A stretch of 64,000 nt of DNA from Candidatus Cloacimonadota bacterium (GTDB taxonomy: Bacteria > Cloacimonadota > Cloacimonadia > Cloacimonadales > Cloacimonadaceae), in contig JASKKR010000003.1 in the NCBI GenBank assembly GCA_030154085.1, forward strand, positions 62,001 to 126,000. Reading direction: 5' to 3'. Of the stretch, positions 55,729-62,472 are shown piece after piece. Each line of letters begins with the position of its first letter. Within the stretch, counting starts at the first letter, position 1. The notes below the pieces were generated by a model. That model saw only the letters and a list, made by a program, of their open reading frames with translations. It did no database searches and was not told where the DNA came from. Both the position numbers and the translations under genes were made by a program.

Positions 55729-56184
55729 TTAGAAGCGTTGCTGCAGACGCAATACCAAGCTCGTAGCAGAGGCTACCACAGCGATGGCAATTGAGATTGT
55801 CCCTGCTATCATGAGAGTTTCAAAGATCAAACTTGACGCCAGAGCCATATCGGAACTGATATAGGCTCGCATCGCGTAATACATGGTACGTCCAGGCACT
55901 AAGGGAATGATTACACAGATCACAAAGACTGATACTGGAGTTTTCACCATGCGGGCAACAACTTCTGAATATATACATACTAAGATAATCGCCAAGAAGA
56001 CTGAAAGCAAGACCGACTCTGTATAGTGCAAAATAATTAAGTAACTTGCATAGCAGATGCCGCCGCCTAATCCGGTTAGTAATACCCGCCATCCTTTAAG
56101 ATTGCTGCGCATGGAAAATCCTAATATTGCCAAAAAGGCAAAACAAAATTGCCAAAAAGTGCTAATGTCCCAGGGTGTATTCAT
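55729..56184 (-). CDS. Threonine/serine exporter, small subunit (YjjB-type)
   Basis: A 151-aa protein with four or five membrane segments, matching the ThrE_2/YjjB half of split ThrE-type exporters (GLGGGICYASYLIILHY, FVICVIIPLVPGRTMYYAMR). In E. coli the YjjP/YjjB pair exports succinate, while ThrE exports threonine and serine. The ATG at 56184 overlaps the stop of the large subunit (ATGA), showing coupled translation; an upstream in-frame TTG is less likely. Confidence 0.88.
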   Translation of the reverse strand: MNTPWDISTFWQFCFAFLAILGFSMRSNLKGWRVLLTGLGGGICYASYLIILHYTESVLLSVFLAIILVCIYSEVVARMVKTPVSVFVICVIIPLVPGRTMYYAMRAYISSDMALASSLIFETLMIAGTISIAIAVVASATSLVLRLQQRF

Positions 56185-56978
56185 CCTAAAATTATCTCCC
56201 AAAGCTTGAGCATGGCACCACTCCCTGCCACGATCCCGACCGTGATGATGAGGGCTTCTACTCCGCGAGCAGTTCCCGCCACCAAATCTCCGCTCATGGT
56301 GTCGCGGATAGCATTTGTGATTGACAGTCCTGGCACCAAGATCATAATTCCACCGACAATAATAGTATCCAAGTTAATAGATTGAAAGCCAAGCTGCATA
56401 GTCTTTGACAGGATCACGATGATCGAGGCAGCAATAGCATTTAACAAAAAGTTATTTACGGGTAAGAGTGAGATATACTTGAGGCTGGCGCTAACAATAA
56501 ATCCGACAATCATTGCCAAAGCAAACTCCAATCCGGTTCCCCCAAAGATCAGGCAAAAGGATCCACTGGTAGCAGCGCCGCACAAGTTTGTCACAAAAGA
56601 GGGATAAGGCTGTTGCGTATCGATCTTCTCCAGTTCCTGCCGGAAGTAGTCATATTTAGTCATCTCCGGAGGACATTTGGCACAATTATCTTCATACAAT
56701 GTGTTTACCACTCGAGTAAGATCAGTGATCTTTCCCAAATCTATGCGTCGCTGTTCGACTCGGCGAATGCTCGTGCTGAGCTCGTTTTTCCCATCTCCGA
56801 TGCTCAGGAAAATTCCAGTGGGCGTCACGAACGACTCTATCTCTTCAAATCCAAAACCCTTACAAACTTTGTACATCATGAGTTCGACCCGATTAGTTGC
56901 CCCTCCGCTTTCCAAAATTATGCTCCCAGCTTTGAGCGCTAATTTGCTACACATTTTGAGCGAAATCTCCGGCATCAA
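56181..56978 (-). CDS. Threonine/serine exporter, large subunit (YjjP-type)
   Basis: A 265-aa protein with an N-terminal cytoplasmic DUF1212 region (GSIILESGGATNRVELMMYK, FVTPTGIFLSIGDGKNE) and about five C-terminal membrane segments including IVGGIMILVPGLSITNAIRD, the characteristic YjjP/ThrE motif. It pairs with the YjjB-type subunit. It overlaps the MutS-like gene by four bases upstream and yjjB by four downstream. Confidence 0.9.
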   Translation of the reverse strand: MMPEISLKMCSKLALKAGSIILESGGATNRVELMMYKVCKGFGFEEIESFVTPTGIFLSIGDGKNELSTSIRRVEQRRIDLGKITDLTRVVNTLYEDNCAKCPPEMTKYDYFRQELEKIDTQQPYPSFVTNLCGAATSGSFCLIFGGTGLEFALAMIVGFIVSASLKYISLLPVNNFLLNAIAASIIVILSKTMQLGFQSINLDTIIVGGIMILVPGLSITNAIRDTMSGDLVAGTARGVEALIITVGIVAGSGAMLKLWEIILG

Positions 56979-58534
56979 TCCTCCTGAGTGATTCTGGCAA
57001 GAATCTCGTCGGGCATGCCCAATATCCTGGCAATCTTCAAGGCATCCAAGGGTGGCGTTTGTCCCTCATCCAAGCTGATCAGACTATAATCCATCGCATT
57101 GGCCAAAGCCTTGAGATTTGCGGTCAGATCATCACCCGCTTTTTGTGCAAAACTCTTGTCTATTCCCTTTATCTGATATTTCCGTGCGTTTTTAAGCCGA
57201 GTCGGCGCACTAAAGTGAGTGGCAGCGACTGTTGTGTGATGGCTTTCTGCCAAGTGCTCGATCACAGCCGTAGCCAGAGCTTCGCCTTCCCGAGGATTGG
57301 TTCCTTTGGCAAATTCATCCAATAGAAAAAGTCCCCGTCCAGAGCGTTTTAGCGCTGTGCAAAATGAAACTACTTCTGCTCCGAACGAAGAAAGACTATC
57401 CGTCTCACCGGCATGATTATAATACACAAAATCAAAAAGGGGAATATTAGCTTGCTCGGCAGGCAGAGGAATTCCTATTTTAGCCATAATTGCACACTGA
57501 GCCAGACTTTTGAGGATACTGGTCTTGCCGCCCATATTGGGTCCGATGATCAGGTTTGCTGCTTTGCCAAATGAGATATCCAAGCTTTGATATTGTCTTC
57601 CATCATTTTCAAGCGCAAGCTGTAAGGGTAGATTCCTCAATCTTTGGATCTGGATCTCATCACTTATCCGAGGAATCACACAATCATATTTGTATGCAAA
57701 TTCTGCCAAAGTATAGTCCCACGCTAATTCCCGAAAAGAATCAATAGCTCTTTCCAATAATGGATTTTGCTCCACAATCTGCTGAGATAATCGCTTTAAG
57801 ATCGCTTCTTCTTCTTGGGCAATTTCCTGATTGATCTCAGCCAATTTACTCTTATGCTGCAAGCTTTCATCACTATCTGCAAGAATATAATGTAGGTTTG
57901 CAATACTTTCACGATGTAATACAAAGTAGGGGCTTTGATTCAAACTTTGGATCAGCGATCTTGCGCTCCGCGGAAGCACAAATTCTTCCTTGAGTCCATC
58001 TATGCCAAGCTGAGCTATAGCTTCTTGCAGATATTTGTGGCGAGCGTGCTTGAGCTTTAGAGCTAAAGAATCTCGCAAGGTATCCAGTTTGGCAAGAGTA
58101 GGACTGTAGGCAGGTGAAAGGCGAAAAGAAGGAATGTTATTCTTTTCTGGATCCAAAAGGGCAAAAAGCTCGCTGAGATCAGGTAAGTCATATAGTGTGA
58201 TGCCTTGCTCAAGACAATATTTTCTTAAAGCCTGATAATGCCAGATAAAATGCTTGAGATCAAAGATTTCATGGAGGGCGAAATTGCCGGCTGCATAGCT
58301 TGAGGCATGGATCTCGGAGATGGGGGAAAGCAGGTCATGCCATTTCATATGACGTCGTTGTCTCAACAAGCTTAGAAGCAATCCACGGCGCTCATATGCA
58401 AAGGCTAATTCATCTGCTGATAGATGTTCATGGTTGAGCTTAGATCGTTTGATAGATGCAATAAAATCCGATGGTGGATCTAACAAAGCAAAAATCTTAT
58501 CCAAGCCCCAAAGCCGACTCTCATATTTCGTCAT
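56975..58534 (-). CDS. MutS-family ATPase (non-mismatch-repair type)
   Basis: A 519-aa protein with a helical lever region (~1-300) and a MutS-type ABC ATPase: Walker A LIIGPNMGGKTSILKSLAQC (~332), signature DSLSSFGAEVVSFCTALKRS, Walker B LFLLDEFAKGTNPREGEALA and ATHFSAPTRLKNARKYQ. It lacks the N-terminal mismatch-binding and connector domains of MutS and the Smr domain of MutS2. Similar short MutS homologues act as chaperone-like reactivases of B12-dependent aminomutases (KamB/KamC type) in amino-acid fermenters; that is an alternative to a DNA role. Confidence 0.82.
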   Translation of the reverse strand: MTKYESRLWGLDKIFALLDPPSDFIASIKRSKLNHEHLSADELAFAYERRGLLLSLLRQRRHMKWHDLLSPISEIHASSYAAGNFALHEIFDLKHFIWHYQALRKYCLEQGITLYDLPDLSELFALLDPEKNNIPSFRLSPAYSPTLAKLDTLRDSLALKLKHARHKYLQEAIAQLGIDGLKEEFVLPRSARSLIQSLNQSPYFVLHRESIANLHYILADSDESLQHKSKLAEINQEIAQEEEAILKRLSQQIVEQNPLLERAIDSFRELAWDYTLAEFAYKYDCVIPRISDEIQIQRLRNLPLQLALENDGRQYQSLDISFGKAANLIIGPNMGGKTSILKSLAQCAIMAKIGIPLPAEQANIPLFDFVYYNHAGETDSLSSFGAEVVSFCTALKRSGRGLFLLDEFAKGTNPREGEALATAVIEHLAESHHTTVAATHFSAPTRLKNARKYQIKGIDKSFAQKAGDDLTANLKALANAMDYSLISLDEGQTPPLDALKIARILGMPDEILARITQED

Positions 58535-59049: not shown

Positions 59050-59139
59050 ATATTTCAATATTCATGAGTGGTAACCGCTAAACAAAGAGGTTAAGCACTC
59101 TACAGAAAGGTCAGTTTCAAAAATCAGAAGGAGGTGTGA

Positions 59140-62100
59140 GTGATTCGCCATATACCGCCTTTTATCCTTGCTCAATTGGAAAAAGGCGATATGCAGGGCA
59201 GTTTTTGTGGTTATGTAATGCTTTTGGATATAGTGGATTTTACCGGAATATCAGAGGTCTTCCAAAAACAATATGACCATGGGGCAGACAGGATTGGAGA
59301 GCTTTTAAACGCAATCTCAGAGGGATCGATCCGCTCGATAGAAAGTCATGGTGGATTTGTCAGTCTTTTTATTGGAGACGCCATTTGTGCTGTATTTCCC
59401 GGAGAAGATCCCCGCCCTCTCTTATGTGCTCTTGGCGAGATTCGTAGGTTTTTATCCGGCATGCGGAAGAGCATGTCGGGTAATCTGAACATGAAACTTG
59501 AGCTGCGGGAAATCATCAGCTATGGTGATATTGCTTGGGAGATCTTAGAAATATCTCAACAGTATGAGTATTTCTTTTATGGAGAAGCATTTCGGAGCTT
59601 GACTCTTTTGGCAGAGGATCACTGTCAAAATGCCTATTCCCAGACTTTTGTGCAACAGGTCGGAGCGGAGCACTTTTCTGTGGAAGATGGCTGCCAAACT
59701 TTGCAGATTCCCCCATTGAAGCTAAAGCCTCAAAAAACTGGATACACTTTTAAAAAAGAAAGCAAGGACCTTTTTGAGCATCCCCGCCTGCGCGGCTACT
59801 CACCTACAAATGAGATTCGCAATCTGGCGGTCTGCTTTGTGGGTCTGCGTAGGGTGCAAGATTATCGGGCTACATTGTTGACGCTTGCGAGGTTGGCAGA
59901 GCGACATCTTGGTTATGTAAACAAAGTCGATTACACCGGTAGTTATCCTGTAGTCGTGGTGATCTTTGGGATTCCACTGAGCACCGGGAAAAGCATTCGC
60001 CAAGCATGTGAATTTTCCTTGAGTCTCAGTCATCAGGAGGATGGGGTCAGCATCGGTCTGAGCTGCGGATATGCCTATGCTGGATATGTGGGTTCGGACA
60101 ATGTGCGAGAATATACTGCCTTGGGTCATTGCATGAATATCGCTTCCCGATTGATGAATCAAGCTGCTTTGGGTGATGTGATCTGCGATACCAGCATCGC
60201 CCGAGAAATCGATGGGGGTTATCTTTTAGAACGCTTGGGAGAGACCTGCCTCAGAGGGCTCAAAAAGGAGCTTAATTTCTTCCGTCTCAAACGAGAACCT
60301 CTTGAAAAGCAGTTGCATTTTAAACATCACTTTGTGGGACGTGAAAATGAGCTGGAATATCTGGACTATGTGGTGAAAACCAATCTCACTGTTTCGCGCA
60401 ATACTGTCATCTATATCCATGGAGAACCGGAAATAGGTAAGAGTAGATTGGCTTGGCGGTTTATTCAAAGCTTGAAGAATTTTCACAGTTTTACGGCGAT
60501 TTGTCCACTTTATGATGGGAGGGTACACGATCCGGTCAAGCAGATCCTAAAACATTTCTTCGGCTTTAGTTATGAGTCTACCCCGGAACTGCTGAAAGCA
60601 AAGCTGGATAGAGTTTTTTCGGAACGAGGCTGGAATGAGGCATATGATAGTAGATTTAAAGCCGATCTGGCATCCATATTGGATCTTGAATACCCCGGCT
60701 CAGCAAGCAAACTTACTGATCCCGACGAGAAGAATCTGCGGCAGATCAAGGCTTTTTCAAACTTCATCTCCCTTTTGGCAAAAGAGATGCCAGTGCTCAT
60801 TATGATCGACGATGGGCAGTGGCTGGCTGAAAGCAGTAGGGATTTCTTTGATTATCTTGATCCCAAAGAGCGGAATCCGATCTTTATCATAACTACTTGC
60901 AGATACCTCTCAGATGGGAGTAAGATGGATCTAGGGCTATCAAAACTGGAGCGCTATGACATGGAACTGGGAGCATTGAAGGAAGAGGATCAGATGGAGC
61001 TCCTGAGGCAGATATTGAGTCCTTTGGGGAAAATTAATCTAAATTTCACCACTATCTCAGATAAGGCAGGTGGATATCCACTCTATCTTGAACAGATGGC
61101 ATATTATATTTTGGAACATACGGGAAATTCCATTGAAGATCCAGTGCTGCCGGAAGTGTTTCAGTCCTTCAGCATCAGCGATGTGATCAATAGTCGTATC
61201 GATCACTTTGGACAAAAAATGCGCGAAACAGTTTATGCCGCTGCAGTCATTGGGATGATCTTCGATACCAACCTATTAGAGCAAGTGGTCAACCATGATA
61301 TAAGCTCCGCACTGGAGATTGGTGAGCGACATAGGCTGTGGAATAAGATAGCTAAGCATAGCTACAGCTTTTCGCATGCTGTGATCCATCAAAACATATA
61401 TGAAAGAATGCTTAAATCGGATGTTATGCATTTGCACCGGCAGATAGCAGATAGCTTGGCGAAGGATATTGATCTGGATGTATCAGGAAAAGCGGAAGCG
61501 GCTTCATATCACTATTCCAAAGCTGGCATGCTTTTTGAAACGCAAAAATATATGCATCTTGCAGCAAAACATTATATGGATACGGATAACTGGCACGAAG
61601 GTATCCGTAGACAGCGGGAGACTGTCATCTATAGCGGTAGGATCTTTGGTTTTGGCTCTACGGAACATATTGAAAACCTCTTCTGGCTGGCGATCGGCTT
61701 TCACTATATGCAGCTCTATGATAAAGCCGAAAAGCTATATGAGATCGTTTATGCAAACCGAGTCAAGGCCTTGGGACATAACAATCTGAAAATCTCCCCA
61801 TATGTGAATAACCTCGGTAGATTCTACAAAGATGTGGGACGCTTTGATGAAGCTGAAAAGCTACTGCGTAAATCTCTGGATATGGAGATTACTATTGGCA
61901 AGCAAACTGATATCGCAGACAGACTAAACAACTTAGCATCCTTGTATAACAAACAAGGGAAATGGAAGTTGGCATTGAGCTATTCACAGAAAGCTTTGGT
62001 ATTGTTTGAACAATCAACACACATAATCCACGATTATTACGTGGGGATGATGGAGCTGAACATCGGTTATCTACATTTCAAAATGGGCAAACCGGAGCTA

Positions 62101-62472
62101 GCTGAAGAAAAAGCTAATCGTGCGCTTAAGCTTATGATCCGCGATCGAGGCGGCAAAAACCCCCGCGTTGCGTTATGCTATCTGCTTTTGGCAGAGTGCT
62201 ACAGTGTGCAAAAGAAATATGAAAAAGCTGAAAAAAAGATGCTCTACGCGCGTAGGAAGTATGGGCAATATTTTGGCAAAGAATCCCCTGATTATGCAAA
62301 TACGAACCTTAAGCTGGGGGATCTGTATGAACAGATGGGACAAGAAGCAAGAGCTGCCAGCTATTGGAAGAAGGGTGCGAAAGTGCTCAAAGCTATGTTC
62401 CCGCCCGATAATCCGTTTGTACAGGAGGCAGACCAGCGCTTGAAAAAGATTGCTCTTTGCCCTAAAAGATGA
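59140..62472 (+). CDS. Soluble class III adenylyl cyclase-like protein with ATPase and TPR domains
   Basis: An 1110-aa protein laid out like soluble adenylyl cyclase: C1 (~25-190), C2 (~224-385), an NTPase (~395-640) with Walker A GEPEIGKSR (from residue 428) and Walker B VLIMIDDGQW (from 552), a helical region, and TPRs (~800-1100; NNLASLYNKQGKWKLALSYS). C1 keeps both metal Asps (D30 in LLDIVDFTG, D80 in FIGDAICAVF) but lacks the Asn-Arg pair. C2 lacks the Asps but has N333 and R337 in GHCMNIASRLM with the right spacing. Together they could form one active site producing cAMP. The start is GTG, with perfect AAGGAGG five bases upstream. Confidence 0.88.
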   Translation: MIRHIPPFILAQLEKGDMQGSFCGYVMLLDIVDFTGISEVFQKQYDHGADRIGELLNAISEGSIRSIESHGGFVSLFIGDAICAVFPGEDPRPLLCALGEIRRFLSGMRKSMSGNLNMKLELREIISYGDIAWEILEISQQYEYFFYGEAFRSLTLLAEDHCQNAYSQTFVQQVGAEHFSVEDGCQTLQIPPLKLKPQKTGYTFKKESKDLFEHPRLRGYSPTNEIRNLAVCFVGLRRVQDYRATLLTLARLAERHLGYVNKVDYTGSYPVVVVIFGIPLSTGKSIRQACEFSLSLSHQEDGVSIGLSCGYAYAGYVGSDNVREYTALGHCMNIASRLMNQAALGDVICDTSIAREIDGGYLLERLGETCLRGLKKELNFFRLKREPLEKQLHFKHHFVGRENELEYLDYVVKTNLTVSRNTVIYIHGEPEIGKSRLAWRFIQSLKNFHSFTAICPLYDGRVHDPVKQILKHFFGFSYESTPELLKAKLDRVFSERGWNEAYDSRFKADLASILDLEYPGSASKLTDPDEKNLRQIKAFSNFISLLAKEMPVLIMIDDGQWLAESSRDFFDYLDPKERNPIFIITTCRYLSDGSKMDLGLSKLERYDMELGALKEEDQMELLRQILSPLGKINLNFTTISDKAGGYPLYLEQMAYYILEHTGNSIEDPVLPEVFQSFSISDVINSRIDHFGQKMRETVYAAAVIGMIFDTNLLEQVVNHDISSALEIGERHRLWNKIAKHSYSFSHAVIHQNIYERMLKSDVMHLHRQIADSLAKDIDLDVSGKAEAASYHYSKAGMLFETQKYMHLAAKHYMDTDNWHEGIRRQRETVIYSGRIFGFGSTEHIENLFWLAIGFHYMQLYDKAEKLYEIVYANRVKALGHNNLKISPYVNNLGRFYKDVGRFDEAEKLLRKSLDMEITIGKQTDIADRLNNLASLYNKQGKWKLALSYSQKALVLFEQSTHIIHDYYVGMMELNIGYLHFKMGKPELAEEKANRALKLMIRDRGGKNPRVALCYLLLAECYSVQKKYEKAEKKMLYARRKYGQYFGKESPDYANTNLKLGDLYEQMGQEARAASYWKKGAKVLKAMFPPDNPFVQEADQRLKKIALCPKR

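Follow-up and report, generated by a model that had tools for sequence, protein, structure and literature searches.

A likely bacterial relative of animal soluble adenylyl cyclase in Cloacimonadota, with a predicted composite active site and a STAND-TPR arm

We identified a gene in a Cloacimonadota genome whose product is quite likely related to the soluble adenylyl cyclase (sAC) of animals. Judging from its sequence and predicted structure, the protein would possess a single complete composite active site, make cAMP, and be controlled by a STAND-TPR part. The gene was found in a window of 64,000 nucleotides, which is the whole stretch of DNA analyzed here, from a genome of 1.95 Mb (42 contigs, 99.75% complete) whose closest relatives bear Cloacimonadota names. 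The coding sequence (59140..62472, + strand; ORF list, Pfam, and structure models) is open throughout and encodes a protein of 1110 aa that comprises two cyclase homology domains (C1 and C2), a STAND NTPase, and TPRs. Its start codon is GTG, and a Shine–Dalgarno sequence, GGAGG, can be read 5 nt ahead of it (59130..59134, +). The N-terminus agrees with that of the closest relative, L033, which aligned from residue 1 to the end with 45.5% identity; the highest identity to any relative was approximately 49%.

The Pfam scan of the 1110-aa protein detected a cyclase domain, AAA_16, and TPRs. PF00211 (Guanylate_cyc; cut-off 21.9) scored 22.4 bits for the full length and 26.5 bits for aa 1–398, and C1 was weak by sequence, as PF00211 matched C2 alone. 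C1 (aa 1–190; 59140..59709, +) was recognized using phmmer, a family profile, and an AlphaFold2 model, and C2 (aa 222–388; 59803..60303, +) using PF00211, the profile, and superposition. When aa 1–398 were compared with the PDB using phmmer, human sAC (ADCY10) ranked first (1.5e-12), followed by cyanobacterial CyaC (5.5e-7) and Pseudomonas CyaB (1.3e-6). The family profile, made from 81 sequences (the window protein and 80 relatives, the best 80 of 151), matched human sAC at 1.1e-55 and the next family, CyaB, at 4.7e-26. The sAC match formed a single alignment over C1, linker, and C2 (positions 17–393), indicating a shared C1–C2 unit rather than two separate cyclase matches. The AlphaFold2 model of aa 1–398 had a pLDDT of 93.3 and a pTM of 0.91; Foldseek placed 24 sAC entries on top (best, 1.4e-27), and the model superposed on human sAC as one C1–C2 unit (VIA Z 37.7, 2.9 Å, 381 residues aligned), with human AC9 and the Pseudomonas tandem-cyclase protein PaPycC (6yii) at Z 32.6 and 23.9 in the same superposition. 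Profile, model, and superposition thus agree on two fused cyclase domains in the sAC arrangement. The original prediction had likened the C1–C2–NTPase layout to that of animal sAC and proposed that C1 and C2 form one site; sAC being the best match by sequence, profile, and predicted fold, and its superposition being that of a single unit, bear this out.

The residues of the active site could be paired with those of human sAC in the phmmer alignment, whose numbering of the human chain fits the published Asp47. The metal-binding D47 and D99 of human sAC correspond to D30 (59227..59229, +) and D80 (59377..59379, +) in C1, K334 and T405 to K262 (59923..59925, +) and T326 (60115..60117, +) in C2, and N412 and R416 to N333 and R337, the ends of an NxxxR motif in C2 (60136..60150, +); all were assigned by alignment and conservation. 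K334 and T405 presumably line the adenine pocket, as the Lys/Thr pair of the ATP type. The roles of Asp47, Asp99, Asn412, and Arg416 of human sAC are given in a passage of PMC4506562. Pairing by eye from the phmmer alignment placed G235 and T266 of C2 opposite the metal Asps, and R152 and L156 of C1 opposite the Asn/Arg pair. The metal and NxxxR residues are therefore split between the domains in a complementary manner and the mirror site is degenerate; with the mirror residues absent, we ruled out a single-domain or homodimeric cyclase. Since the six residues map to sAC from the two domains together, one composite site is expected from sequence and model, with the metal Asps contributed by C1 and the adenine, ribose, and phosphate residues by C2. 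D30/D80 in C1 and N333/R337 in C2, with each domain lacking the other's set, had been predicted and are indeed present at these positions. These four residues were right, but the list was incomplete, as it omitted K262 and T326.

We then examined the conservation of these residues among relatives. A contig search with the single window protein as a query found no relatives, and a search with an alignment as a query found 151, of which the best 80 were retained. In these 80 named relatives, D30 was found in 80, D80 in 80, K262 in 61, T326 in 75, N333 in 80, and R337 in 79, where the D30 and D80 counts are biased because the search patterns contained both motifs. N333 and R337 lay outside the search patterns, and their conservation is thus more than chance. 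Five of the residues (D30, D80, K262, N333, and R337) occurred jointly in 62 of 81 rows (window and best 80 of 151). Of the 80 relatives, 65 had NCBI phylum names, covering 12 phyla (32 Cloacimonadota, 8 Chloroflexota, 5 Fermentibacterota, 5 under Thermodesulfobacteriota, and others), and the other 15 were without phylum placement. A second sample of 50 rows, consisting of the window protein and 49 from a phylum search with the whole C1–C2 and leaving out the two single-domain cyclases of the window's own genome, retained D30 in 47 (one row being gapped there owing to its start), D80 in 50, K262 in 45, T326 in 40, N333 in 49, and R337 in 45. A third sample had 26 rows from 13 genomes (30 loci, four short ones dropped); here D30, D80, and N333 were each present in 26 and R337 in 25. 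In the phylum, 83 of 124 genomes matched, a figure that takes in single-domain cyclases and hence does not count sAC-like genes.

Some relatives lack key site residues, so the family likely includes catalytically dead copies, as far as sequences can tell. In the 50-row sample, position 337 was Ser in L038 and L075, Phe in L037, and Gln in L071, and L077 had E/E/K at 30/333/337. The L077 gene (L077:5020-8280, +) keeps an intact Walker A and appears to encode a STAND-TPR protein whose cyclase is likely inactive. In the L037 locus (L037:5048-6070, +), the frame ends after 340 aa at an in-frame stop within the C2 match. After the C2 Lys, the window protein reads YTGSY (59917-59946), whereas most relatives have x-D-K-G and the nearest relative, L086, has YSESH; Asp occupied position 267 in 67 of the 80 relatives (best 80 of 151), and the window protein departs at 267–269.

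The cyclase pair is followed by a STAND-type P-loop NTPase module (aa 398–757; 60331..61410, +), recognized from AAA_16, a winged-helix-like end, and a Foldseek match to the STAND-TPR crystal structure 6mfv (1.2e-16). Alignment located Walker A, GEPEIGKS, at aa 428–435 (60421..60444, +) and Walker B at aa 552–558 (60793..60813, +). In the 47 rows longer than 800 aa, Walker A Lys434 was kept in all, the first Walker B acid was Asp or Glu in all, and Arg was found at the R588 position in 42. A TPR superhelix (aa 765–1105; 61432..62454, +) was supported by Pfam, the full-length model, and structure comparison; it resembled the superhelices of APPBP2 (Z 32.1) and MalT domain III (Z 25.4), which is weak evidence, since high scores come easily to helical repeats. 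An NTPase, a winged-helix-like end, visible only as a strand-helix pattern, and a TPR arm were seen in the full-length model (pLDDT 86.2, pTM 0.76). Walker A and B, the winged-helix-like end, and the arm together correspond to a STAND NTPase with a TPR sensor, and a P-loop NTPase after C2 is also a property of sAC; a passage of PMC12802110 attributes a STAND domain to human full-length sAC.

As for regulation, a passage of PMC4506562 lists two side chains, Lys95 and Arg176, and two backbone positions, Val167 and Met337, as the bicarbonate contacts of human sAC. Alignment placed L76 (59365..59367, +), four residues before D80, at Lys95, and a Leu in place of the bicarbonate-binding Lys was thus correctly predicted. 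The second side chain is also gone, with T155 (59602..59604, +) at the place of Arg176; this pairing was made by eye in a region of weak conservation and is less certain than the one between L76 and Lys95. With both holding side chains of the pocket absent, bicarbonate would not act via the human site, and the sequence suggests that the window cyclase is probably switched on by something other than bicarbonate. Arg was found at the Arg176 place in none of the 80 relatives (best 80 of 151), the 50 rows, or the 26 rows. Lys at the Lys95 place was likewise absent from the 80 (best 80 of 151), and was found in 6 of 50 and 4 of 26.

These ten other bacterial members retaining Lys95 differ at the T405 place: the six rows of the 50-row sample are one Cloacimonadota group with Gly, and the four of the 26-row sample (L189, L192, L196, and L204) have Thr. 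Of four more Lys-type genes, two lie in the genome of L086 and one each in those of L091 and L085; all three genomes also carry a window-type gene, so that three Cloacimonadota genomes have both types. No second C1–C2 gene was seen in the window's own genome by the genome and phylum searches. In a 35-row tree, human sAC joined the six Lys rows (100/99), and constraining it to the window's clade was rejected (p-AU 0.003); a 101-row tree likewise placed it with the Lys95 group (98). In both trees the human branch is very long (2.1–2.3) and the root unplaced, and the grouping may partly be long-branch attraction; both trees were made without L189, L192, L196, and L204. The Lys95-type profile matched 27 times in the genome of L117 (G136) and 42 times in that of L144 (G124), and many of these matches lay in frames of more than 1000 aa; by sequence, this is an unusual expansion of sAC-like genes.

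The cyclase gene stands alone. It is separated by 605 bases from a divergent ORF upstream and by 301 bases from the start of the next co-directional ORF downstream; this isolation, the strong Shine–Dalgarno sequence, and the GTG start had all been noted in the original prediction and are accurate. Neighboring genes encode a MutS-like protein, parts of a ThrE-type transporter, and two ORFs without Pfam hits. The ThrE-type exporter genes (55729-56978, −, and 56975-58534, −) adjoin the gene of the MutS domain V protein and are divergent from the cyclase gene. When flanking genes were compared with 52 loci by tblastn, several of which are short, the sole match, in L084, was the window's own upstream stretch; an operon partner was rejected, as no flanking gene recurred.

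We surveyed the genome for a cAMP pathway. Besides that of the window, it encodes two class III cyclases: a cyclase-AAA-TPR protein of 933 aa with one cyclase domain (L073:7292-10093, −) and a CHASE2-cyclase (L074:9186-11057, −). A CRP-type cAMP receptor, for which the original prediction had advised searching the genome, did not materialize: no HTH_Crp profile matched above its cut-off across the genome, and CRP was rejected as the receptor with the best, HTH_Crp_2, at 20.7 bits against a cut-off of 27. Three CNB proteins were found instead, namely a histidine kinase, a small CNB-only protein, and a receiver-CNB fusion whose CNB match was below the cut-off. The strongest CNB match was the CNB-HisKA-HATPase kinase (L165:742-1857, −, in G000:C10), with the cassette FGEMGIITEEPRSASV. 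A cassette like FGEMGxIxxxPRSA[ST]V, with small changes allowed, occurred in the top CNB match of all 11 genus mates, which makes 12 of 12 genomes once that of the window is counted; in the mates, kinase identity was judged by frame length alone (375–438 aa). We take this phosphate-binding cassette to be of the cAMP-binding type. The CNB-histidine kinase is the likely candidate for the cAMP receptor, and the two other cyclases of the genome could also feed it.

Taken together, we propose the following mechanism. Sequence and prediction suggest that C1 and C2 pair as an sAC-like pseudo-dimer that has one complete active site; this unit would make cAMP from ATP. A protein or peptide may be the ligand sensed by the TPR arm, and the STAND module, in its nucleotide-bound state, may relay the signal to the cyclase pair, by analogy with MalT-like switches; bicarbonate would have no action through a human-type site. 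The cAMP would act mainly via the CNB-histidine kinase instead of a CRP-type transcription factor. More tentatively, and with somewhat less than even confidence, bacteria may hold two old sAC branches: a branch with the bicarbonate Lys that is the closest to animal sAC, and a branch that retains the composite site without the pocket, is controlled by the STAND-TPR arm only, and includes the window protein. Genomes with both types would then have CO2-tuned and ligand-tuned sACs feeding cAMP to the CNB-histidine kinase, not to CRP.

A cyclase that no longer cyclizes has to be considered. The C1–C2 pair might only bind ATP or another nucleotide as a regulatory or dimerizing part of the STAND-TPR switch, producing no cyclic nucleotide, and both the relatives, such as L077, in which catalytic residues are gone but Walker A remains and the deviation of the window C2 at 267–269 would fit such a degenerate pair. 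However, the window protein retains the full set of six site residues, and D30, D80, N333, and R337 hardly vary across samples from 12 named phyla; relaxed selection would not yield such conservation, and we regard degeneracy as unlikely. Active but bicarbonate-regulated sAC, sensing HCO3− through residues other than Lys95 and Arg176, seems less probable still. A two-domain enzyme of Chloroflexus is reportedly stimulated by bicarbonate. According to a passage of PMC4506562, residues besides Lys95 are not conserved in bacterial orthologs, whose mechanism is unclear. Nevertheless, both side chains are missing in the window protein and none of the 80 named relatives (best 80 of 151) has Lys95, whereas a sister group retains it.

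Tandem cyclase domains also occur in clade A PycC of the Pycsar phage defense (PMC11224242, in a passage on these proteins), and the window protein could in principle be a pyrimidine cyclase with cCMP or cUMP as its product. The PADLOC PycC model does match (3.3e-8), 6yii does superpose (Z 23.9), and tandem-cyclase proteins can use other nucleotides. Even so, sAC is far closer (Z 37.7), the adenine-type pair K262 and T326 is present, and the gene has no adjacent TIR or membrane effector gene such as PycTIR or PycTM, which makes a Pycsar assignment highly improbable. Clade A PycC (6yii) therefore shares the tandem class III domains with the window protein, while differing in its effector neighbor and lower fold score, and it was absent from the phmmer matches up to E 10.

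Human full-length sAC has approximately 1610 aa. The window protein shares with animal sAC (ADCY10) the C1–C2 fusion, the one composite site with D/D from C1 and K/T/N/R from C2, and the P-loop STAND NTPase after C2, and differs in having Leu and Thr for Lys95 and Arg176, a shorter chain with a clear TPR arm, and a phylogenetic position outside the Lys95-type bacteria with which animal sAC, on its long branch, groups. Cyanobacterial CyaC/CyaB1 and Pseudomonas CyaB have a single cyclase domain and form homodimers with two sites; they share the class III fold and an sAC-like catalytic domain, but CyaB matched the profile more weakly. The TOMM kinase/cyclase fusion TIGR03903 scored 122.8 bits over the C2-AAA-TPR part, far under its cut-off of 705.75 bits, and the Pfam scan found no kinase domain. 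Kobayashi, Buck, and Levin are said to have described, in 2004, Chloroflexus proteins that have two cyclase domains and resemble sAC in their C-terminal part, one of them reportedly stimulated by bicarbonate. Together with the mention, in a passage of PMC6660944 citing Roelofs 2002 and Kobayashi 2004, of a bacterial sAC with a P-loop NTPase domain, this means that the two-domain sAC-like architecture is already known in bacteria and is not new. A literature search for sAC-like proteins or adenylate cyclase in Cloacimonadota or Cloacimonetes found no paper, which is weak evidence of absence. What we add is how widely this architecture occurs in Cloacimonadota and further phyla, how well its composite site is conserved, and that it divides into types that have or lack the bicarbonate Lys.

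How the autoinhibitory domain of sAC works remains unclear, according to a passage of PMC3838963, and, as a passage of PMC12802110 states, the STAND P-loop predicted in full-length sAC was the reason for testing nucleotides on it. A compact bacterial homolog with an intact STAND-TPR arm, a complete site, and no bicarbonate pocket would allow C-terminal control to be studied apart from bicarbonate, and paralogs with and without the Lys in a single genome are a natural test of the role of Lys95. For Cloacimonadota, the protein would mark a cAMP pathway, which may run via a histidine kinase.
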